Of a DNA stretch of 64,000 nucleotides, positions 4,680-57,433 are shown in pieces; position 1 is the first letter of the stretch, and each line of letters begins with the position of its first letter. The DNA lies in the NCBI GenBank assembly GCA_030538275.1, contig JAUNUH010000002.1, forward strand, positions 1 through 64,000, given 5' to 3'. Below the pieces are notes generated by a model. That model was given only the letters and a program-made list of their open reading frames with translations, was not told the origin of the DNA and did no database searches. The DNA is from Flavobacteriaceae bacterium. Lineage in GTDB: Bacteria > Bacteroidota > Bacteroidia > Flavobacteriales > Weeksellaceae. A program made the translations under genes and the position numbers.

Positions 4680-6020
4680 TTAAATTTCTTGCAGATTTAT
4701 TCCGCCATAGTTTCCACTACTCATCATTAGGAAAACAGCATTTTGTCTATTCAAATTCGAAATAAATGCTTGCAAATTTTCAGTCGCGGTAAAAACATGA
4801 ATGGATTCGTCTCCAAAGGCTTGTTGTATGAATTCTGGCGGAATGGGTTGGCGGCGTTTGATCTGAAGTGCCTCCGAAGAATAATACACGATTTTAATAT
4901 CTGCTGGACTCAATGAATTTTTGTACTGATTCAAAAACTCTGAATTCAAGGAAGAATAGGTATGTAACTCTAGACATGCAATCAAATTAGCATTAGGAAA
5001 TTGTTCTCTTACTGCAGCTGTGGTAGAGGATACTTTGCTAGGTGAGTGTGCATAATCCTTATAAACGATGTAGTCTTTTTCGCGTTTCACAGATTCTAGC
5101 CTTTTGGAAGCACCTTTGAATGTGGAAATGGCTTCATAAAATTCTTCGTCCATTATCCGAAGTTGATTACAAATCAATCTTGCTCCTTCTAAATTCAAAA
5201 GATTATGTTTTCCAAAAATCTGTAATGGCAGCGGGCCATCTGTTGTTTGTAAATAGGTAATTCCGTCTTTTATAACATGCTCTGGTGTTTTGTAAGGAAG
5301 TTTTCGGATTTGATTGGACGAATTTAAAATCACTTTTACCACCTCTGTATCTTCTTGATTATAAATAATTACACCTCCTTTTACAATACTATCCACAAAA
5401 AGGCGAAACTGTTCTATATAGTTTTCAAAAGTGGGAAAAACATTGATATGATCCCATGCAATGCCGCTCAATAATGCTATATTGGGTTTGTACAGTAAAA
5501 ATTTGGGTCGGGGATCCAGCGTAGAAGATAGGTATTCATCTCCCTCCATAATCATAAAATCGCTGTCTTGTGAGAGTTTTACCATCACATCAAAGCCTTC
5601 TAATTGCGCTCCCACCATATAATCTTCTTCTCTGCCATGAAAGTGCAACACATGTAAAATCATGCTGGTAATACTGGTTTTGCCATGAGAACCTCCAATC
5701 ACAACTCGGGTTTTTTCTTTAGACTGTTCATAAAGATATTCTGGGTAAGAAAAGATCTTGAGCCCGAGTTCCTGTGCTTTCAACATTTCTGGATTGTCTG
5801 CGTGGGCATGCATTCCCAGAATAACAGCATCTAAATCTGCCGTTATTTTTTCGGTAAACCAGCCGGTTTCGGCAGGCAAAAGTCCATGGGATGCCAATCG
5901 GGATTTTGAAGGTTCAAAAATGGCGTCGTCTGATCCTGTAACTTTGTAACCCTTTAAATGTAAGGCTATTGCAAGATTATGCATAGCACTTCCTCCTATG
6001 GCAATAAAATGAACTTTCAT
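4680..6020 (-). CDS. mpl: UDP-N-acetylmuramate:L-Ala-gamma-D-Glu-mDAP ligase (Mpl)
   Basis: The 446-residue Mur ligase family protein starts at MKVHFIAIGGSAMHNLA. The longer frame to 6044 would run into the promoter. The N-terminal Rossmann motif is GGSAMHNLAIALHLKGYKVTGSDD. The ATP P-loop is GGSHGKTSITSMIL, and the family regions GDEYLSSTLDPRPKFL and WDHINVFPTFENYIEQF are visible. The motif YKDYAHSPSKV marks the C-terminal domain. Mpl attaches recovered murein tripeptide to UDP-MurNAc in peptidoglycan recycling in the cytoplasm. With AnmK at 16.9 kb it points to active cell-wall recycling. MurC is the closest alternative, but the N-terminal and length features fit Mpl. Confidence 0.9.
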   Translation of the reverse strand: MKVHFIAIGGSAMHNLAIALHLKGYKVTGSDDAIFEPSKSRLASHGLLPAETGWFTEKITADLDAVILGMHAHADNPEMLKAQELGLKIFSYPEYLYEQSKEKTRVVIGGSHGKTSITSMILHVLHFHGREEDYMVGAQLEGFDVMVKLSQDSDFMIMEGDEYLSSTLDPRPKFLLYKPNIALLSGIAWDHINVFPTFENYIEQFRLFVDSIVKGGVIIYNQEDTEVVKVILNSSNQIRKLPYKTPEHVIKDGITYLQTTDGPLPLQIFGKHNLLNLEGARLICNQLRIMDEEFYEAISTFKGASKRLESVKREKDYIVYKDYAHSPSKVSSTTAAVREQFPNANLIACLELHTYSSLNSEFLNQYKNSLSPADIKIVYYSSEALQIKRRQPIPPEFIQQAFGDESIHVFTATENLQAFISNLNRQNAVFLMMSSGNYGGINLQEI

Positions 6021-9252: not shown

Positions 9253-10087
9253 ACACTTTTTCACACTACTCAAAATCCTAATTAGCTTGGGACTTTTGTA
9301 TTTTGTTTACACCAAAATCGACTGGCAATTGCTCAAAAATGAATGGAAATTATCCAATAAATTTTATTTATTCTTAGCCTTTATTTCCTTTATCATTTCG
9401 CAAATTTTCTCTGTTTTACGAGTAGATTTTTATTTCAAAAAAGCCGGTGTTCATATGAGTTTTGCCAACAATGCACGCCTATATTTGTTGGGCATGTTCT
9501 ACAACTTTTTCATACCTGGCGGCATCGGCGGGGACGCCTACAAAGTAATCGCCCTCAATCGACACTACGACCAATCGGTAAAAACACTTACAACCGCCGT
9601 TTTTTTCGACCGATTTATCGGTTTATGTGCCATTTTTATCCTCATTTGTCTCGGAATTGTATTTATTCCTATAGATATACCCTTGTGGATCAAGGTATTA
9701 TTTTTTTCAACAGGAATCATAGGAGCACTCATAGGTCCAGCCATTTTAGGCCGAATTTTCACCAAATTCAAAGAAGCATTTTATCCCACACTACTCATTT
9801 CATTTATCATTCAACTCTTTCAAATCGGCACGATAGTACTTGCGCTTTTGGCAACACATCCAGATCATAATATCATGGTTTATGTACTTATTTTTCTGGT
9901 TTCCAGCGTCTTATCAATCGTATCCTTTGCTGGAATCGGCATTCGCGAAACTGTTTTTTATTATGCAGCTCAGTATCTCAATTTCAACCCCGATATCTCT
10001 GCCGGAATCGCATTGATTTTCTCTGTAATCACGCTCATTACCTCTCTTTTTGGCGCTATTTATCTCTTTAGAAAAATTAAATTTTAA
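9233..10087 (+). CDS. Flippase-like integral membrane protein (LPG synthase TM-domain/YbhN family)
   Basis: The 284-residue protein has about eight membrane helices. It starts with GTG at 9233, overlapping the GT2 gene by 20 nt (MKKSWRKHFFTLLKILISLG). The motif YNFFIPGGIGGDAYKVIAL near residue 93 and the later SFAGIGIRETVFYYA are characteristic of the UPF0104 family, which shares the membrane part of lysyl-phosphatidylglycerol synthase. By context it may move a polyprenyl-phosphate sugar made by the GT2 enzyme across the membrane for the GT39 enzyme; this is inference. No soluble aminoacyl-transfer domain is present. Confidence 0.85.
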   Translation: MKKSWRKHFFTLLKILISLGLLYFVYTKIDWQLLKNEWKLSNKFYLFLAFISFIISQIFSVLRVDFYFKKAGVHMSFANNARLYLLGMFYNFFIPGGIGGDAYKVIALNRHYDQSVKTLTTAVFFDRFIGLCAIFILICLGIVFIPIDIPLWIKVLFFSTGIIGALIGPAILGRIFTKFKEAFYPTLLISFIIQLFQIGTIVLALLATHPDHNIMVYVLIFLVSSVLSIVSFAGIGIRETVFYYAAQYLNFNPDISAGIALIFSVITLITSLFGAIYLFRKIKF

Positions 10088-10103: not shown

Positions 10104-10174
10104 CCCATCTTGTCAAAGCCCTTACAATTTCTACATTTCCAAATTACATCAACCCATGGCTTTGACAAGATGGG
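10104..10174. repeat. Perfect 17-bp inverted repeat with 37-nt loop
   Basis: Arms 10104-10120 (cccatcttgtcaaagcc) and 10158-10174 are exact reverse complements. They lie shortly after the flippase stop. No T-run follows, so a simple terminator is unlikely. A second, weaker pair (10192-10204 tatctttgccaaa with 10271-10284) lies just downstream. Together they fill most of the 364-bp gap before the lipoprotein gene. Confidence 0.75.
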
Positions 10175-10280
10175 ATCAGGCTTTCCGTTTCTATCTTTGC
10201 CAAAATTTTCTGTACAATTTCATTTCACGCAAAACAACTATTTCTCCTTCCTATCCTATACCCTAACAAGTTTGGCAAAG

Positions 10281-10313
10281 GATATCCACTACAATCCTTA
10301 TCGCGCACCGGCC
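10281..10313 (-). repeat. Divergent relative of the folded intergenic element
   Basis: On the minus strand this reads ccggtgcgcgataagg then attgtagtggatatcc. The core matches attgtaggggata with cccggtgccg at 28205-28227 and recalls the ggatatagyg...agccgg ends of the elements at 37.1, 38.9 and 56.9 kb. Only a fragment is recognisable. Confidence 0.35.
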
Positions 10314-10451
10314 CACAATCTTGCAAAAATATTAATTCTCCAATCACATTCGATTTCCTCCTTCAAAATACTTTGCTTTCAGCATTTCAACAGAAAAGTA
10401 ACCAATGAACTCAATTCATTTCTTATATTTAAACCCAATAAAAACCCACCT

Positions 10452-10805
10452 ATGAAATTTATATCAATTATCTTTCTCATTGTATCGGTTGTAACCTCTT
10501 GTACATCACCCAATTCTACGGCTCGGGATTTTCTTGTCGCATTAAATCAAAAACAGTTTGAAACCGCCACAGATTTGGTAACAGAGGCTTCCAAACCAAT
10601 TCTGTACGAACTCATACATCAAGAAACACAAGAAATGCCAGAAGTACAAATTAAAATAGAAAACTGTGCCGCAGCAGAAGAAAATGATAAACATGTAATT
10701 TGTCTATATTCCATTAACAATCAAGGAGAAAGGTTTGAGAAAAGAATTCACCTCATCAAAGAAAATAACCAATGGAAAATAGATTTAACGCAAAAAGTGA
10801 ATTAA
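10452..10805 (+). CDS. Small lipoprotein, DUF4878-like
   Basis: The 117-residue protein starts at ATG 10452 with a lipoprotein signal (MKFISIIFLIVSVVTSC) whose lipobox cysteine is residue 17. The mature part (ARDFLVALNQKQFETATDLV at the front, ENNQWKIDLTQ at the end) has the pattern of DUF4878/NTF2-like lipoproteins, which fold as a cone-shaped alpha+beta domain. The long in-frame extension to 10050 runs through the inverted repeats and the flippase end and is not coding. Function is unknown. It lies 10 nt before the BtuF-like gene and may be co-transcribed. Confidence 0.75.
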   Translation: MKFISIIFLIVSVVTSCTSPNSTARDFLVALNQKQFETATDLVTEASKPILYELIHQETQEMPEVQIKIENCAAAEENDKHVICLYSINNQGERFEKRIHLIKENNQWKIDLTQKVN

Positions 10806-26678: not shown

Positions 26679-28025
26679 ATGCAAGCACAGGAAGATTTTC
26701 TATTAAAAGCCTTTGAATTAGGAATTATAAAATTTGGAAGTTTTACATTAAAAAGCGGTATTGAATCTCCGTTTTATGTGGATTTGCGACCACTGGCTTC
26801 TAGTCCTCATTTGTTGAAAACCCTTTCACATCACCTTTTACAATTGGTAGATGACAAGGCGCTAGAATTGATTTGCGGCGTGCCCTATGCTGCGCTGCCC
26901 ATGGCTACCACCATGTCATTGGAGAGCGGTATTCCATTGATAATCAAAAGAAAAGAAAACAAGGGTTATGGTACCAAAAAAATGTTGGAAGGAGTTTATC
27001 ATGCAGGGCAAAATTGCCTTTTGGTAGAAGATGTCATTACCAGCGGTAAAAGTTTATTAGAAACCATAGACGAGGTAGAAAAAGAAACACTGAAGGTAAC
27101 AGATATTGTAGTGGTACTGGATCGCGAACAAGGAGGTGTAGAATTGCTTCGCCAAAAAGGATATCGCGTGCAAACGCTTTTTACAATAAATGAAGTCATA
27201 GACATTTTGCACAAATATCATCGCCTGAATTCAGACGAAGTGCAAAATATTAAAGAATTTTTATCCGCAGCTCCAGAAGAAATTGTCGTTTCTCGTAAAA
27301 GACTGGAAGATAAAGATATACAGCATCCAGTAGGTAAAAATATGATTGATATCGCTCTGCGAAAAAAATCTAATTTAATAGTAAGTGCCGATGTTATAAG
27401 TTCTATTGAATTGTTGAATTTGGCCAAAAGTATTGGTGACAAAATTGTTGCTTTGAAATTGCATTCCGATATTATTACCGATTTTTCTCAACAAATGGTC
27501 GTAGAATTACGTGGAATTGCAAGAGAAAAGGACTTTTTATTATTCGAAGATAGAAAATTTGCAGATATTGGAAATACCCAAGAATTGCAGTTCAGACAAG
27601 GCGTTTACCGATTTGCCGATTGGGTGGACATGGTAACCGCACATCCCATTGCCGGTGAAAAAAGCTTTGATGTTTTTGAACCTACCGGCGTGGTGGCTAT
27701 TGTAGAAATGTCTTCTGCCGGAACGCTCACCGACAATTATTATGTATCACAAGCATTGAACGTAGCTACCAGATCAGACGCTGTTTTTGCGGTAGTTGCG
27801 CAACGACGTGTTCCAGATGATTTGCTGCTATTTACGCCAGGTGTGCATATTGGAAAAAAAGGTGACAACAAAGGTCAACAGTACAATACGCCTCAAAAAG
27901 TGTTTTCAGAATATTTTACCGATTTTATGATTGTGGGGCGTGGAATCTATCAAGCAGATAATCTGGTCGAAACGGCGGAAGAATATAGAAAACAAGGCTG
28001 GGAAGCGTATTTGGAGAGTATTTGA
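26679..28025 (+). CDS. Bifunctional UMP synthase: OPRTase-OMP decarboxylase fusion
   Basis: The 448-residue protein fuses two enzymes of UMP synthesis. Residues 1 to about 200 are orotate phosphoribosyltransferase, with IKFGSFTLKSGIESPFYVDL, the PRPP-binding CLLVEDVITSGKSLLETID and RKENKGYGTKK. Residues about 220-448 are OMP decarboxylase. It has HPVGKNMIDIALRKKSNL then IVSADV, the catalytic ALKLHSDII (Lys, Asp), LLFEDRKFADIGNTQEL (Asp-Lys-Asp) and the ending VGRGIYQADNLVETAEEYRK. The order and the DRKFADIGNT type of decarboxylase match animal UMP synthase rather than the usual separate bacterial PyrE and PyrF. It converts orotate to UMP via OMP in the cytoplasm. No frameshift or internal start is evident. 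Confidence 0.93.
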   Translation: MQAQEDFLLKAFELGIIKFGSFTLKSGIESPFYVDLRPLASSPHLLKTLSHHLLQLVDDKALELICGVPYAALPMATTMSLESGIPLIIKRKENKGYGTKKMLEGVYHAGQNCLLVEDVITSGKSLLETIDEVEKETLKVTDIVVVLDREQGGVELLRQKGYRVQTLFTINEVIDILHKYHRLNSDEVQNIKEFLSAAPEEIVVSRKRLEDKDIQHPVGKNMIDIALRKKSNLIVSADVISSIELLNLAKSIGDKIVALKLHSDIITDFSQQMVVELRGIAREKDFLLFEDRKFADIGNTQELQFRQGVYRFADWVDMVTAHPIAGEKSFDVFEPTGVVAIVEMSSAGTLTDNYYVSQALNVATRSDAVFAVVAQRRVPDDLLLFTPGVHIGKKGDNKGQQYNTPQKVFSEYFTDFMIVGRGIYQADNLVETAEEYRKQGWEAYLESI

Positions 28026-28113
28026 TTTGTTATTTTGAATTCTGAATTTTAAAATTTGAAATCCGAAACCTACTGAACGCGGAGCTTCCGCGGCAGGGAT
28101 AGTACCGGAAATC

Positions 28114-28203
28114 CTTTTCTCCTAACTCAATGACCGAAAAAAATCCTAGACTAGGGCGCAAAAACTGGTTTTTGATAATCAAATCTTCATTTCAGGAGAA
28201 AAG
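28114..28203. repeat. Inverted repeat near a divergent folded element
   Basis: cttttctcct at 28114-28123 pairs perfectly with aggagaaaag at 28194-28203. The flanks (agggatagtaccggaaat before, gattgtaggggatagcccgg after) resemble the conserved ends of the elements at 37.1, 38.9 and 56.9 kb. A 6-bp GC-rich hairpin (cgcgga gct tccgcg) lies at 28079-28093. These occupy the 312-bp gap between convergent genes. Confidence 0.5.
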
Positions 28204-28222
28204 ATTGTAGGGGATAGCCCGG

Positions 28223-28293
28223 TGCCGTCCCAATAAAGCACTGGAAGAATGTTTGATTAAGGATATGATTTTGAGTGCTTTATTGGGACGGCA
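28223..28293. repeat. Perfect 20-bp inverted repeat
   Basis: Arms 28223-28242 (tgccgtcccaataaagcact) and 28274-28293 are exact reverse complements around a 31-nt loop. No T-run follows on either strand. It may be a bidirectional 3'-end hairpin for the two convergent genes or the end of a mobile repeat. Confidence 0.75.
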
Positions 28294-28337: not shown

Positions 28338-29582
28338 TCATAGGATCATTGCCATCGCCATTACAAGCGCAAGAATAAAGAAGAAAAGTATGGAATAAAT
28401 AATTCCCATGAGCAAAGACGATAAAATAGCGCGACGGATACTGGTTTGGTAAAAGATATAAACCGAGTTGATGAAATAAACTGCGATGTAAAAGCCAAAA
28501 ATGCATGCTAAAATAAGTATAAAAGGCCACCACTCAAGGTCAAAAAATCGGTATAGCGAGACCGTAATGCCGAAGAAAATGCCCAGTACCATAAACATAA
28601 ACGTGTGCAGTGAAACCGCATGAACAAAGTGTTCATAGTATTTTTTGTACCGGTAAAAATAGAATAACATGAAAATCAAAGATGCGATGGGCATGATGAA
28701 AAACATACTGTATGAAAAATAATTAAGCAATGCTCTCATACGATTTTCTACAAAACTTTTCTTTTCTGCAGATGTCCCGTATTTGAAAACAGCTGTCATA
28801 CGCAACATGCTACGATGCACATAACTATCTATAATTGACCTTTTTATGCCGTCATTAGCTTCTAATTCGGTGGCAAAATCAGGATTTTCGTGAATTTCTT
28901 GTATGGATTCGACTGCATATTTTTTATCTTGTACATAAATACTGTCATATTGTGGTTTGACAAGAATTCCTAAAGCGTTGGATTTTCTATCGACAGCTTC
29001 CACTATTCCAAAATTGATAATAGTTTTGTCTGTTAACTCGGTATAAATGGAGTCTATCGCATCTTTATTTCTCAAAAATTTCCATTCATTTGCTGTAAGA
29101 TCCTCTTGCTTAGAATTCAGCATTACGCTATCTGCCAAGTTTAGTAATTGTTGCCTATCCATGTTCATTGATTTGCGGTGCAAATCCTGATTGAGAACAA
29201 TGGTTTTATAGTTTCTACTATCTTTGAGGCCAACACTACGATTCAGGTTTGCTGAATTCATCATCAGTCCCACGCCGGCATTGAGAATCAGAAAATAAAA
29301 AAATGAAATAAATAGGTAGAGCCGCATGGGCGGAACATAGCGTATCTTTTTTCCCTGCACATAATCGCGCGGCATTTTTCCTGGATTTAGAAAAATAGTT
29401 TTGAGCGTATGCAGGATTTTATTGTCAAAATTGATAAATGAACCTATGAAATCGTTCCAAAGTTCTTTGAGTGAATTACCGTGAAAATGGTTTTCCTGCC
29501 CACAATTTGGACAGAAATTATCCCTGGGGTTTAATTGAGTTAAACAGTTGGGACACTGCGATATGCGCCGACGATTTTTCAG
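28338..29582 (-). CDS. DUF3667 zinc-ribbon membrane protein, probable non-ATG start
   Basis: The ATG-initiated frame (29375) gives 345 residues with about five membrane helices. The same frame continues open upstream and encodes a convincing N-terminus with two CPNC pairs (QCPNCLTQLNPRDNFCPNCG) and ELWNDFIGSFINFDNKILHT, the zinc ribbon typical of DUF3667. Between the upstream stop (about 29609) and the ribbon no ATG, GTG or TTG exists. CTG at 29582 is the best candidate, giving 414 residues. A TAATTTTG box at 29603-29596 supports transcription starting just before it. An eight-base A/T run at 29588-29595 leaves a frameshift or sequencing error as the alternative. Function of the family is unknown. 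Confidence 0.7.
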   Translation of the reverse strand: MKNRRRISQCPNCLTQLNPRDNFCPNCGQENHFHGNSLKELWNDFIGSFINFDNKILHTLKTIFLNPGKMPRDYVQGKKIRYVPPMRLYLFISFFYFLILNAGVGLMMNSANLNRSVGLKDSRNYKTIVLNQDLHRKSMNMDRQQLLNLADSVMLNSKQEDLTANEWKFLRNKDAIDSIYTELTDKTIINFGIVEAVDRKSNALGILVKPQYDSIYVQDKKYAVESIQEIHENPDFATELEANDGIKRSIIDSYVHRSMLRMTAVFKYGTSAEKKSFVENRMRALLNYFSYSMFFIMPIASLIFMLFYFYRYKKYYEHFVHAVSLHTFMFMVLGIFFGITVSLYRFFDLEWWPFILILACIFGFYIAVYFINSVYIFYQTSIRRAILSSLLMGIIYSILFFFILALVMAMAMIL

Positions 29583-35571: not shown

Positions 35572-36984
35572 TTATTTTTTCTCTACCGGATATATGCCTG
35601 TAAAACATCCAAAACAATGATTTTCAGAGCCTAATAATTCTTTCAAATTTTCAACCGATAAAAACTCCAAGCTATCTACGCCCAAATATTCACGCAATTC
35701 ATCTCCATGCATATTCGCAGAAATCAATTCTTTTTTTGTCGGCATATCAATGCCCAGATGGCAGGGAGAAACAATAGCAGGCGACGCACTACGAAAGTGA
35801 ATTTCCTTGGCTCCAGCTTCTCTCAGAATTTTTACCAATAATTTACTCGTCGTACCTCTTACAATACTATCATCCAGAATTACCAGGCGTTTGCCTTTTA
35901 TTTTTGGAATTATGGGATTCAATTTCAAATTGACAATACGTTCACGCATTTCTTGCGTAGGTACAATAAACGATCGGCTCATATACCTGTTTTTTACTAA
36001 AATGGGCTCAAACGGAATTCCACTCGCCTCAGAATATCCTATGGCCGATGGCACACCACTATCCGGAACGCCTATCACAGCATCGGCGTCTATAGGTGCC
36101 TGTTCATACAGTTTCCGACCACTTTGTACACGTAGATCATACACCTCTTTTCCCTGCAAATTACTATCAGGTCTAGCAAAATAAATATATTCAAAAGAAC
36201 ACAAACGCTGCTGCCTTTTTTCTGAATAAAAATAAGATTCAACACCTTCTGGCGAGCAAATCACGATTTCGCCAGGCTCTACTTCCCGCACAAAGGTGGC
36301 ACCAACCGCATCCAGTCCCACCGTTTCTGAACTGAAAACCCAAATGTCATCACCAATTTTTCCCATACTCAACGGGCGAATTCCATTGGGATCACGAAAA
36401 GCCGCCAATTTGTTTTTAACCAATAACAGCACAGAATAAGCCCCTTCTATCAACTTTTCTACCTGCTGCATTGCCTTTTCCACAGGCAAATCAGCATAAT
36501 ACTGAATCGCACGCAGCATCACCTCCGTATCAGAGGTAGCGATAAATGGTAAATCTTTGTCAACCAGCTCATTACGTAGCTCTTCTGTATTCACCAAATT
36601 CCCGTTATGAACAATAGAAAAATGTGGTTTCCCATATTTATTCACCGCATATAGGGGTTGAATATTCTTGGAACCACCACCACCAGCCGTAGAATAACGC
36701 GTATGACCAATCGCAGCATTTCCCATAAAATCTTCAAAATTCTCGATATTACGAAAATTATCCAAAACCAGCCCATTACTCTTGGTTGTACGTATCTCAC
36801 CATCTTTCAAAACAGAAAGACCACAAGCTTCTTGTCCACGATGTTGCAAGGCAAACATGCCAAATTGCATCAACGAAAAAGTATCAATATTTCGTGGAGA
36901 ATACACACCAAAAATTCCGCACTCCTCTCGCATAGGCTTGGGATTCACGAGCATTTCAAAATTCAGATTTTCTGTGGGAAACAT
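35572..36984 (-). CDS. purF: Amidophosphoribosyltransferase
   Basis: The 470-residue class II glutamine amidotransferase/PRTase has the nucleophile Cys in MREECGIFGVYSPRN near residue 22. The short N-terminal propeptide is removed in this family. ALQHRGQEACGLS, HTRYSTAGGG and SIVHNGNLVNTEELR form the Ntn domain. RLVILDDSIVRGTTSKLLVK is the PRPP loop, and Cys residues near the C-terminus (NHCFGCFTGIYPV) fit the Fe-S form. It commits PRPP to purine synthesis. MLVNPKPMREE or MREE are alternative starts because the propeptide length varies. Confidence 0.96.
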   Translation of the reverse strand: MFPTENLNFEMLVNPKPMREECGIFGVYSPRNIDTFSLMQFGMFALQHRGQEACGLSVLKDGEIRTTKSNGLVLDNFRNIENFEDFMGNAAIGHTRYSTAGGGGSKNIQPLYAVNKYGKPHFSIVHNGNLVNTEELRNELVDKDLPFIATSDTEVMLRAIQYYADLPVEKAMQQVEKLIEGAYSVLLLVKNKLAAFRDPNGIRPLSMGKIGDDIWVFSSETVGLDAVGATFVREVEPGEIVICSPEGVESYFYSEKRQQRLCSFEYIYFARPDSNLQGKEVYDLRVQSGRKLYEQAPIDADAVIGVPDSGVPSAIGYSEASGIPFEPILVKNRYMSRSFIVPTQEMRERIVNLKLNPIIPKIKGKRLVILDDSIVRGTTSKLLVKILREAGAKEIHFRSASPAIVSPCHLGIDMPTKKELISANMHGDELREYLGVDSLEFLSVENLKELLGSENHCFGCFTGIYPVEKK

Positions 36985-37050: not shown

Positions 37051-37197
37051 TTGGGCGGCATTTCCGGCTGTACACTATATCCCAACAATCAAATGCTTAG
37101 AAAATGCTGGTGTACAGGATTTCCATTCCATTCCAATCCTGTACACCACATTTTCTTAGCGCATTCGAATTGTCGTGATGCCGTTTCCATCCGGGCC
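37051..37197 (-). repeat. Folded intergenic element, copy C
   Basis: On the minus strand it begins gcccggatggaaacggcatc and ends gggatatagtgtacagccgg then aaat, matching the ends of copies A (38.9 kb) and B (56.9 kb). The centre is a different hairpin: 37109-37121 pairs perfectly over 13 bp with 37135-37147 (ggtgtacaggatt), extended by agaaaatg/cattttct. It lies between purF and ruvC, both on the minus strand. Conserved ends with a swapped central stem suggest a structured RNA or a mobile palindromic repeat. Confidence 0.65.
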
Positions 37198-37225
37198 GCG
37201 CTACGTCTGGCAATTTTGCAAAAAA

Positions 37226-37780
37226 TTAGGAGTTTTGCGTTCTGCCTGGATTTTGTTTTACAAATGCAGACCAACCCGAATAGGATTTTTCACCAATCGA
37301 TTTCCCAGAATTAAAATGATGACAAACCGCCGCAGCCAATCCATCTGTTGCATCCAAACTATCCGGCAAATTCTTGATATTCAATAGATTTTGAAGCATA
37401 CCAGCCACTTGTTCTTTACTGGCATTCCCATTTCCAGTAATTGCCATTTTGATTTTTTTGGGCGAATATTCTGTAATGGGAACCTCTCTATACAATCCCG
37501 CTGCCATGGCCACACCTTGTGCACGACCCAATTTGAGCATAGACTGCACGTTTTTACCATAAAAAGGCGCTTCAATGGCCAATTCATCTGGATGAAAAGC
37601 ATCTATTAGAGCCAATGTTTTTTCAAAAATACGCTTTAATCGCAATGAATGACTTTCGTATTTCTTCAAAATCAACTCATCTATCATGATGAGTTTCATC
37701 TTGTTGTTACAAACCTCAATCATCCCAAAACCCATCACGGTCGTTCCAGGGTCAATTCCTAAAATTATTTTTTCATTCAT
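37226..37780 (-). CDS. ruvC: Crossover junction endodeoxyribonuclease RuvC
   Basis: The 184-residue RNase H-fold nuclease begins [20 protein letters not shown] with the first catalytic Asp. [20 protein letters not shown] gives the catalytic Glu, and [13 protein letters not shown] the C-terminal acidic pair. It resolves Holliday junctions with RuvAB. It overlaps the end of panE by eight bases, so the two are translated from one message. RuvA and RuvB are not in the window. Confidence 0.96.
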
Positions 37781-38708
37781 CTATATGATTTCCTGCATAA
37801 TATTCTGTAACCGATAAACACTTGTAAATCATTTCATTCAAAGGAACAGACATGTCCATTTCGTAGGCAAAACGTACAACCGCACCATTCAAATACTCCA
37901 GCTCAGAGGGTAATTTGGCGTCTATATCTCGTTGCATAGAAGATGTCGCGTTATAATCTGCCGCGTCAACCATGCGCATGGCATGAGTTACAACACTTTC
38001 ATCCCAGTTGATTTGTTTGGCAACGCCTACATGGTAAATTTCTGTAAAAAGTTCTTTCAACATTTTGCGTCCTGGCTTGTACGAACGGATTTCACCGTAT
38101 GTGCTGCGCGTGAGCGCCAATAAACCTCCGCTACAGATAAACATGAATTTTTTCCATTTCTGTAGGTGAATATCCTCTTCTGCATGTGCTTCAAAACCAG
38201 CTTCGTTAAAGGTTTTTACCAATTCTAAAATTCTTGGGGTTAAGGATTTATTATTTTCACCTATTTGAATGACAGGCTGATTATAGCCAAAATGATGAAT
38301 AACTCCAGGCGCTTCAATTTTACTGTAAATTTTACATAATCCCGGTATAATTGATTTATAATCAATATGTTGCTGTAGAATTTCTTCACTGGCCAAGCCG
38401 TTTTGCAACGGAATTACGACTGTGTTCTCGTGCATTACATGATGCAATAGTGGCGCAATTTCTTTTACTTGTTCAACTTTGGTGCAAACCAAAATCAAGT
38501 CTGCAGTGGGAAAATCTGTTAATTTGTCTGATGCTTGCGCAGGTGAAATGACAAAATCACCGTCCACGCTTTTCACTCTAAGTCCTTGATTTTTAATCGC
38601 GTTTAATTGTTCGTTGCGTGCAAAAAAATATACATCATGTTTATTTTGGGCTAATTTTCCACCGAAATAGCCTCCTACACCACCTGTTCCTATAATTACA
38701 ATTTTCAT
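37773..38708 (-). CDS. panE: 2-dehydropantoate 2-reductase
   Basis: The 311-residue enzyme begins [20 protein letters not shown] with the NADP-binding GxGxxG loop. [17 protein letters not shown] and [20 protein letters not shown] (catalytic Lys region) are present, and the C-terminal helical domain ends near [12 protein letters not shown]. It reduces ketopantoate to pantoate for coenzyme A synthesis. Related ketopantoate-reductase paralogues of other function exist, so the assignment is strong but not absolute. Upstream is TATCTTTA, a near-match to the -7 box, six bases before the ATG. Confidence 0.9.
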
Positions 38709-38913
38709 GTTTTAAAGATATGATTTGTTTGTGAATTTCCGTGTTCTTTGGAAATTTTCATTTCTTTTTTGAATATTAGTTGAGACAAATTAGCGCGTCA
38801 ATTTAGCTTTATTTTGTATTAATTGTAATCGAATTTATAGAAATTGAATCAATAATAATGTGTTTGTATGAAGTTTTTGATGTAATTTAGGAGTTTGGTC
38901 TAGACGGTTTTAG

Positions 38914-39040
38914 CCCGGATTGCAGCGGCATCCTGCGAACAAAAATGCTATACAAAAATGCTGCTTACAAGAGCGATAGCTCCTTGTACGCAGCATTTTT
39001 TTTGCATTATTGGAGCAGGATATAGCGTAAAGCCGGAAAT
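38914..39040 (+). repeat. Folded intergenic element, copy A
   Basis: The element runs from cccggattgcagcggc to gccggaaatagctcc. The outer pair is cccgg 38914-38918 with ccgg 39033-39036. A second stem is atcctgc 38930-38936 with gcaggat 39015-39021, a perfect 7 bp. A long central hairpin at 38954-39003 has apex agcgatagct. The bulges attgcagcgg and atagcgtaaa recur in copies B and C. It lies in the 349-bp gap between panE and the DUF2892-like gene; the rest of the gap shows nothing else. Confidence 0.7.
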
Positions 39041-39057
39041 AGCTCCCCATCTACTTC

Positions 39058-39624
39058 TTAGAAATATTTTCCTCTTTTGCGCATATGGGGGTTTTGCATA
39101 TTTCGGCCCATATTCATTTTTTTGAGTTGTTCTTCAAAGATTTTGATTTGGTCGGTAAGCATATTTTGCTTGTCTTCTGCTTTGGCGTCAGCCAATAATT
39201 TTTGGGCTTCTTGTTTGCGGCCTCGGGTCATAGCGCCTGCAGCTAAATTCATTTTGGCCATGGCGCGGTCGTGCGCAAAGGATAAACCATGATCTAGAGC
39301 TTTGCGCATGTGGGTTTCGGATTTGGTGAGATTGTTTTGGGCTTCTGTGAGTCCCAGCATGAAGTTGTAATATCCCAACTGTTTCTTAATCAATTGTTTA
39401 TCTGGATTTGTTATTTTGGATAACCACATTTTGGCAGCTTCCATGTCTTGATTGCGCATTTTCCAGAAGGCAAGTAATATAAATTCGTTTCGGAAATATA
39501 ATAAAATTGGGATAGAAGACAATAAAATACAGATGATTCCCCAGGCAATTTCGCGTTGGGTGATGAGAAAAACACCGCCAACGATAAGCAATAGAGCGAG
39601 TATAGGTTTTAATATTTTATTCAT
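39058..39624 (-). CDS. DUF2892-like two-helix membrane protein with TPR-like tail
   Basis: The 188-residue protein has two N-terminal membrane helices (about residues 8-22 and 27-47; ILALLLIVGGVFLI and GIICILLSSIPILLYF). A helical TPR-like region follows (about 55-165; KSETHMRKALDHGLSFAHDR), ending in a basic Met/Asn-rich tail. This layout is common among uncharacterised Bacteroidota proteins. Function is unknown. It has its own promoter box 17 nt upstream and is separate from the hydrolase/pdxJ operon. Confidence 0.75.
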   Translation of the reverse strand: MNKILKPILALLLIVGGVFLITQREIAWGIICILLSSIPILLYFRNEFILLAFWKMRNQDMEAAKMWLSKITNPDKQLIKKQLGYYNFMLGLTEAQNNLTKSETHMRKALDHGLSFAHDRAMAKMNLAAGAMTRGRKQEAQKLLADAKAEDKQNMLTDQIKIFEEQLKKMNMGRNMQNPHMRKRGKYF

Positions 39625-56067: not shown

Positions 56068-56808
56068 ATGAACATAAAACAATTTTTGGATTCAACTTAT
56101 CTCAAAACCTCCGATCAGTCGGGTCTCACAGAAGAGCAAACTTGGCAAAAGGTAAAAGAGCTCACACAAGAAGCAATAGATCATGGTATTTTTGCTGTTA
56201 TGATAAGGCCTGAATATATGTCGAGGGTGCGCAAAATGATAGATGAAGCCGAATCGGATGTGGTTTTGGGCTGTGTAATTTCTTTTCATGAGGGAGATTT
56301 ATCTACAGAAGATAAATTGAATGAAGCTCAGAAAGCCTTGGAAGATGGTGCAGATGAATTGGATTTTGTCATTAATTATCGTCAGTTTATCAGTGGGAAT
56401 TTACAATTTGTTGCGGATGAGGTATTACAGGGGAATCGATTGGTTTTGGAGGCGGGTAAAACCATCAAATGGATTATAGAAACCGCTGCTTTGAACGCAA
56501 ATCAGATTGCTGAAATTACAGATTTGATTCGTGGTGTTACCGAGAAGAATTTTCCTGGAAAAGAATCGCGTGTTTTTGTTAAAACTTCTACTGGTTTTTA
56601 TGATTCGGCGGATGGCAAGCCGATTGGTGCTACTATTGAAAATGTGAAAATTATGCTTGAGCATGCGGGTAAATTACCTGTAAAAGCTGCTGGTGGAATA
56701 AGGACGCGAGAAGAGGCCATTGCGATGTTGGATTTGGGGATAAAGCGTATTGGAACTTCGTCTGCTTTGGCCATTTCGGATGGAGCTGCTGCAGAAGATT
56801 CTTATTAG
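56068..56808 (+). CDS. deoC: Deoxyribose-phosphate aldolase
   Basis: The 246-residue TIM-barrel aldolase has ADELDFVINYRQFISG and SRVFVKTSTGFYDSAD, where the Lys forms the Schiff base. KAAGGIRTREEAIAMLDLG carries the second Lys. It splits deoxyribose-5-phosphate to glyceraldehyde-3-phosphate and acetaldehyde in nucleoside catabolism. Only two bases separate it from the EEP gene, suggesting co-transcription. Confidence 0.95.
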   Translation: MNIKQFLDSTYLKTSDQSGLTEEQTWQKVKELTQEAIDHGIFAVMIRPEYMSRVRKMIDEAESDVVLGCVISFHEGDLSTEDKLNEAQKALEDGADELDFVINYRQFISGNLQFVADEVLQGNRLVLEAGKTIKWIIETAALNANQIAEITDLIRGVTEKNFPGKESRVFVKTSTGFYDSADGKPIGATIENVKIMLEHAGKLPVKAAGGIRTREEAIAMLDLGIKRIGTSSALAISDGAAAEDSY

Positions 56809-56861
56809 ACAAATGTTTTGAGAAAAAGCTAGGGTGTTGGTAAGTAGTAGGAAACCCTTAG

Positions 56862-56991
56862 TCCCGATTGTAACGGCATCCTTTGAAAAAAGATACTTCT
56901 GCAAAATGTGTTTTACAAGAGCGGTAGCTCCTTGTAAGGCACATTTTTGCAAGTAGATTTTGAGCAGGATATAGTGAAAAGCGGGAAAAAA
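56862..56991 (+). repeat. Folded intergenic element, copy B
   Basis: The element runs from tcccgattgtaacggc to agcgggaaaaaactcc. The outer pair is tcccg 56862-56866 with cggga 56982-56986, a compensatory version of copy A. The second stem is atcct 56878-56882 with aggat 56966-56970. The central hairpin spans 56901-56950 with ttacaag (56913-56919) pairing cttgtaa (56931-56937) and apex agcggtagct. It lies between convergent deoC and the UmuD-like gene. Confidence 0.7.
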
Positions 56992-57004
56992 CTCCAAAAA
57001 AATA

Positions 57005-57433
57005 TCAAAAAGATTTGATAACGTGGGTAACGATGCCCCAGATTTGGAAATTTTGGGTTTCGTTGATGTGAATGGGGCGATAATCTACGTTGGCAGGCAT
57101 GAGCCAGATTCCGTCGCGTTTGATACGTATGCGTTTACAGGTAAATTCGCCATCGATGAAACATACGGCGATTTTGCCGTCTTGTGGTTGTAAACTGCGG
57201 TCGATGACCAGCAGATCGCCGTCTGCAATGCCATCGTCTATCATAGATTGTCCATTGACTTTGGCGTAAAAAGTAGTGAGAGGGTTGCGAACGAGCTCTC
57301 GATTGATGTCGAGTTTGTTTTCGAGTTTTTCGTAAGCAGGTGAGGTTTGGCCACAGCTTATGCCATTGATAAACAGAGGTATCTCGGTTTGGGTAGAAAT
57401 ATCGGGGGTTATTATTTGTAGCTGTAAAGTCAT
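57005..57433 (-). CDS. UmuD/LexA-type S24 peptidase (orphan)
   Basis: The 142-residue protein matches UmuD. The self-cleavage site is a Cys-Gly in LFINGISCGQTSPAYEKLEN (about residues 27-28). The catalytic Ser is in VNGQSMIDDGIADGDLLVID and the catalytic Lys in CFIDGEFTCKRIRIKRDG. No HTH DNA-binding domain is present, which excludes LexA. No umuC gene lies next to it. It probably acts in SOS mutagenesis with a partner elsewhere. A -7 box lies six bases before the ATG, and no LexA box is identifiable by eye. Confidence 0.88.
   Translation of the reverse strand: MTLQLQIITPDISTQTEIPLFINGISCGQTSPAYEKLENKLDINRELVRNPLTTFYAKVNGQSMIDDGIADGDLLVIDRSLQPQDGKIAVCFIDGEFTCKRIRIKRDGIWLMPANVDYRPIHINETQNFQIWGIVTHVIKSF

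Follow-up and report, generated by a model that had tools for sequence, protein, structure and literature searches.

The question raised by this locus is what kind of element recurs between its genes. In an initial annotation, the window (a 64,000-nt stretch of Flavobacteriaceae DNA) was described as carrying three folded intergenic copies with conserved ends (A, B and C), typical of a structured RNA or a palindromic mobile repeat and possibly matching the Rfam Flavo-1 motif, and a cmscan of the three copies and a genome-wide covariance search were proposed. Copies A, B and C were all present where they had been placed. When scanned against Flavo-1 (RF01705, gathering score 42 bits), copy A matched at 38908-39043 (47.6 bits, E 3.7e-7) and copy B at 56856-56992 (45.4 bits, E 1.5e-6), which confirmed the suggested family, while copy C gave no Rfam match at E≤5 and so stays below the 42-bit score. 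The list of three was also incomplete, as two further copies at 28.1 kb and 10.2 kb bring the total in the window to five; these two, together with A and B, exceed the gathering score with 44.1-49.6 bits.

The copies were also scored with R1, a covariance model derived from 26 compact copies, of which relatives supplied 24 and this genome two. Copy A (38912-39046, plus strand; R1 39.3 bits) lies between panE (37773-38708, minus strand) and an uncharacterised gene (39058-39624, minus strand). It belongs to the GGCATC/GATATAG class and is made up of an outer helix (AGC/GCT and CCGG/CCGG), internal loops, a long central stem and the apical sequence ACAAGAGCGATAGCTCCTTGT. Copy B, of the same class, occupies 56860-56995 on the plus strand (R1 49.2 bits), flanked by a convergent DeoC-like gene (56068-56808, plus strand) and an S24 peptidase gene (57005-57433, minus strand). 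The fourth copy (28088-28228, plus strand; cmscan 49.6 bits, R1 60.9 bits) is of the GGAAATCC/GATTGTAG class with a non-palindromic centre and is set between convergent genes at 26679-28025 (plus strand) and 28338-29375 (minus strand), and the fifth (10170-10317, minus strand; cmscan 44.1 bits, R1 53.7 bits) is of the GGATATCC class and has a poorly paired centre.

Copy C (37053-37199, minus strand) is located between an amidophosphoribosyltransferase-like gene (35572-36984, minus strand) and ruvC (37226-37780, minus strand). It is of the class of A and B and forms a full-length rod with an outer helix GCGGC/GCCGC and a (TGGAA)n-like apical loop. R1 detected it with 20.3 bits (E 0.005), and over 162 nt it shares 84% identity with a further full-length genomic copy, itself found by R1; because of this match and this identity we regard copy C as a diverged relative of Flavo-1, below Rfam grade. 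The genome-wide search with R1 returned about 54 Flavo-1 matches in the 2.5-Mb assembly, against 11 for the Rfam model in the same genome. The Rfam model covers the outer 76 positions only, the inner helices and apical module being absent from it, and its smaller number is probably due to the long centres of the copies.

None of 200 dinucleotide shuffles folded as well as copies A, B and C, with z values of -5.9 to -8.1 as RNA and -5.5 to -8.6 as DNA (copy A, -6.7 and -6.3; copy C, -8.1 and -8.6). Since the three copies beat their shuffles as both molecules, folding energy cannot separate RNA from single-stranded DNA. The structure of compact relatives has an outer helix of 3-4 bp, then a pair of 3x3 loops in which GNA faces GGA, one on either side of a 2-bp step, and further inward another helix of 3-4 bp, a C bulge and a stem that varies; 97% of cells are paired and 16-18 of the 19 modelled pairs have changes on both sides. 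Alignment A4, containing 18 copies of the window's genome including A, B and C, revealed one rod of about 135-165 nt with 42 pairs in five helices, 33 of these pairs having compensatory changes and 95% of cells being paired. Covariation in A4 reached 0.562, against 0.172 for shuffled alignments and no more than 0.116 for slid ones; deriving the structure from A4 itself gives it an advantage over the slid controls, but the margin is large. The initial annotation had left itself open to an alignment of many copies without covariation and to a lack of transcripts, and on the first point the covariation proved very strong.

The compensatory change earlier seen between the outer pairs of A and B is real, CCGG/CCGG and CCCG/CGGG differing by one G-C to C-G double change. 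The inner hairpin had also been described as swapped, and that of C does differ from that of A and B, but to call it replaced is an overstatement, as it falls at the same position in the alignment, its stem pairs having changed on both sides together. Copy C and its relatives have GGAATGGAATGGAA as apical loop, and A, B and others one of the GAGCG type. From these loop forms and alignment A4 we infer that the central hairpins of A/B and of C are one apical module at different stages of divergence, a step taken by way of intermediate copies since the A/B and C loops themselves are poorly alignable. Many copies have an extra outer helix (e.g., that of C), and the 3' end of many is of the CGCCCAAA or CTCCTAAA type, both features lying outside the Rfam model. 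Judged from these sequences, Flavo-1 in this lineage is larger than Rfam describes.

Flavo-1 copy number among 40 relatives extended from zero to 89 or more per genome, and in a sample of the phylum the element was found in 22 of 148 genomes. The control RNA 6S-Flavo was a single copy wherever it was found (31 of the 40 genomes). Viral contigs gave 59 pattern matches, only four of which were true Flavo-1 copies; these are on IMG/VR contigs L311, L320, L321 and L289 and represent an occasional phage or prophage-edge location. No match to the two Flavo-1 subfamilies searched was obtained from plasmids. Separately, L113 carries 100-140-nt stretches at about 5065-5180, 9583-9717 and 10473-10618 which recur many times in G008 and G059 and gave no Flavo-1 match.

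Rfam types the family as "Gene; sRNA", Weinberg 2010 rated it likely RNA and not cis-regulatory (PMC2864571), and it has been placed with the bacterial sRNA families of highest abundance, with no function given (PMC9029176). A structured RNA gene which is multicopy by chance would agree with the strong covariation and with the excess of G-U over A-C on one strand described below. Genomic context was sampled for 110 copies in 1.2 Mb of three genomes, with ORFs called mechanically. Three copies were in ORFs and eight at region edges, and gap types followed the background (63 tandem, 18 divergent and 18 convergent; p 0.21 and 0.53). Strand relative to the neighbouring genes was random (46 same, 53 opposite). 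In a consensus-level test of copies of relatives, the Bacteroidetes -33/-7 promoter pair was found with none of 109, and downstream T-runs were not in excess in the same number of relatives' copies (30 observed, 29 expected). A transcriptome of F. psychrophilum contains Flavo-1 matches in sense or antisense without preference, many being untranscribed (PMC9723704). Because the context is random, promoter and terminator signals are lacking and published transcripts are indifferent to strand, an sRNA gene is disfavoured. Copy number that varies by up to two orders of magnitude among relatives, where 6S-Flavo keeps to one, and the presence or absence of copies at orthologous sites also count against such a gene, which we consider quite unlikely.

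Orthologous sites were compared for presence of the element. Site E1, in the genus of G010, is filled in three close congeners and empty in six, and its element stands directly after a stop codon and before a convergent gene. Site E3 (L098, 12025-12159) is upstream of the start codon of a gene which we take to be htpG from its start, MATGSINVSVENIFPLIKKFLYSD, and is filled in nine congeners and empty in four; at both sites the presence/absence is unpolarised. In the genus of G010, a subfamily of about 118 nt is scattered over dozens of sites whose flanks are unrelated, its copies being about 90% identical, and pairs of copies in the window's genome are up to 93% identical over 138 nt. By DNA synteny, the site of copy C is without the element in G002, of the same genus, and for copy A the corresponding site shows no counterpart in G001 and, at best, a diverged one in G002. 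The E1 junction is not exact, other junctions are rearranged, and no clean target-site duplication was observed at the junctions compared. By the general marks of a mobile repeat, namely presence/absence at orthologous sites and near-identical copies with unrelated flanks, Flavo-1 looks, on this comparative evidence, like an element of the mobile kind. The alternatives first offered, structured RNA or palindromic mobile repeat, thus hold up, with copy number, orientation and presence/absence favouring a mobile repeat over an RNA gene. We consider it probable, though well short of certain, that Flavo-1 is a non-autonomous mobile repeat, a short hairpin of 80-180 nt that resembles REPIN and MITE elements and is spread through intergenic DNA in Flavobacteriales.

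At E3 the structure has been maintained in the orthologous copies of nine species, with wholesale differences in the centre between species and, in G050, one pair flipped from GT/AC to AC/GT. This weakens the mobile reading, since a structure kept in nine species could mean a local function. Flavo-1 could be a hairpin in the 3' or 5' UTR of transcripts, dispersed by chance and kept for a role in stabilising or regulating neighbouring mRNAs, as the copies which adjoin stop codons and the paired changes kept upstream of htpG would suggest. The random orientation of copies to their neighbours and the four congeners without a copy at htpG make this improbable for the family as a whole, although some copies, such as E3, may act in a UTR.

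To ask which molecule folds, defects in paired cells were counted strand by strand. On the Flavo-1 strand, G-U defects outnumbered A-C defects 31:10 in alignment A2 (p 0.0015) and 32:3 in the 18-copy set (32 G-U in 782 cells), and as 1x1 mismatches the ratio was 54:17. A double-stranded cruciform would equalise both kinds, so the excess of G-U indicates that a single strand folds, and a pure double-stranded DNA cruciform was rejected. Total G-U was 1.5% of A2 cells (31/2059), A2 having been aligned to a model trained on few G-U pairs, and 4% in the 18-copy set. Controls from the same genomes had 8% G-U in tRNA stems and 10% in 6S-Flavo, the latter for a structure guessed by RNAalifold. As a share of all defects, G-U made up a third to a half in Flavo-1 and three quarters in the controls. 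The 26 compact copies had G-U in only 2 of 491, which was at one point taken as proof of folding at the DNA level and is weakened to a lean by 31/2059 and 32/782. The G-U deficit, counted with founder effects among related copies left in, leans toward single-stranded DNA over RNA and is not decisive. The RNA-like 32:3 ratio, one position of the 18-copy set at which G-U is the commonest pair, as in RNA, and the lack of replication-strand bias by GC skew (52 of 110 copies) weaken the mobile reading; by this last result Flavo-1 also differs from IS608-type single-strand transposition.

The strand-specific fold and the RNA-like balance of G-U to A-C in the 18 aligned copies would also be expected if Flavo-1 moved through an RNA intermediate, with selection on an RNA fold that is copied back into DNA in the manner of a SINE. 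Consistent with this, the 3' end is conserved (CCCAAA/CTCCTAAA) and A-runs are in excess downstream of relatives' copies (86 of 109, against 54 expected), but they are in excess upstream too (76 against 50.5), the G-U content is under that of the RNA controls, and the 90%-identical subfamily of about 118 nt terminates in CCNWAA and lacks a long A tail. Movement through RNA is in our view unlikely.

A non-autonomous repeat would need a mobiliser in trans. Of the 40 relatives, 21 have Flavo-1 and 16 of these also have Y1_Tnp genes, compared to 2 of the 19 that lack Flavo-1 (p 3e-5; 0.007 within family), an association for which genome size is a confounder. Bacteroidetes RAYT genes of subclass 2.6 are flanked by "atypical structures" (PMC6006769), and the co-occurrence and these structures together would suit Flavo-1 as the cognate REP of that RAYT/TnpA-REP subclass. 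Near 30 Y1_Tnp loci, however, Flavo-1 was not enriched (3 of 30 stretches, the nearest at about 400 nt), and most of eleven Y1_Tnp-like loci, the majority RAYT-like, are flanked by another palindrome (e.g., of the CGAGCRTCATGCTCG type), with Flavo-1 in the flanking stretch of only one. The window's genome has no Y1_Tnp, yet 54 Flavo-1 copies. Y1_Tnp genes co-occur with Flavo-1 but carry other repeats, and RAYTs were rejected as mobiliser; a cognate REP is very improbable, and the mobiliser is probably not a RAYT of these genomes. RAYT-like genes (YIHNNP/YIHQNP) with flanking repeats of their own, of the GCTGGCGCGAGCRTCATGCTCGTG or GCTAGCGCGGATTTGCAATCCGTGCC type, were observed at loci L144, L145, L147, L149, L150, L151, L152 and L157.

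For the mobile hairpin we propose that a single strand of Flavo-1 would fold into the rod, in which paired stems may drift in sequence while unpaired motifs stay constant: the GNA/GGA 3x3 loops, the bulged C in compact copies, an AATGCG/CGGAT loop and the apical GGAAYGGAA or GAGCG. The folded strand, in the simplest case single-stranded DNA, would be recognised by a recombinase supplied in trans, which would copy it and place the copy in AT-rich intergenic DNA. More tentatively, Flavo-1 might belong to an unrecognised class of bacterial mobile elements, in which the selected unit is a long folded single strand with nearly all stem pairs free to co-vary and only the internal loops, probably of sheared G-A motifs, fixed, and which is moved by an enzyme unrelated to RAYTs; we regard this as possible but doubtful. 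If the mobile hairpin reading is true, catalogues of Bacteroidetes sRNAs contain too many entries and there is a transposition machinery still to be found. Counting G-U and A-C defects by strand, with 6S and tRNA as controls, was not decisive here but may help to separate RNA from DNA folds in other orphan Rfam families.

The elements described here share with Rfam Flavo-1 the outer 76 positions, the sequence motifs and the pairing, but in this genome many copies reach about 135-165 nt, have conserved inner helices and an apical module and frequently carry a further helix on the outside, and the family acts as a dispersed repeat and not as an sRNA gene. The full-length architecture, the kinship of copy C and the case for a dispersed mobile-type hairpin over an sRNA gene are what this analysis adds. 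Like RAYT-mobilised REP/REPIN/BIME elements, Flavo-1 is multicopy, intergenic, palindromic and patchy, with a single-strand hairpin and conserved unpaired bases, but it is much longer, its stems are free to vary and it is not beside RAYT genes. CGTC-type REPs are also dispersed palindromes without a dedicated transposase (PMC3733652), but have stems of 8-9 bp compared to 42 pairs here, and no common terminal tag was recognised. Bacterial MITEs of the RU/ERIC type resemble Flavo-1 in being 100-180 nt long, intergenic and multicopy; in Flavo-1 no target duplication was recognised and the fold is kept by covariation along its whole length. Integron attC sites are folded single strands with conserved unpaired bases and a variable terminal structure, as is Flavo-1, whose copies are dispersed and without cassette arrays.

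A second hairpin (28223-28293, plus strand; TGCCGTCCCAATAAAGCACT...AGTGCTTTATTGGGACGGCA) abuts the 3' end of the fourth copy, and one also lies 3' of the fifth copy, toward lower coordinates. In this genome a perfect inverted repeat of at least 12 bp follows 6 of 55 copies on the 3' side, compared to 1 of 36 in the upstream control. The CTTGTCAAAGC arm is frequent in such second hairpins, and a sub-threshold cmscan match to mir-263 corresponds to a second hairpin 3' of Flavo-1.
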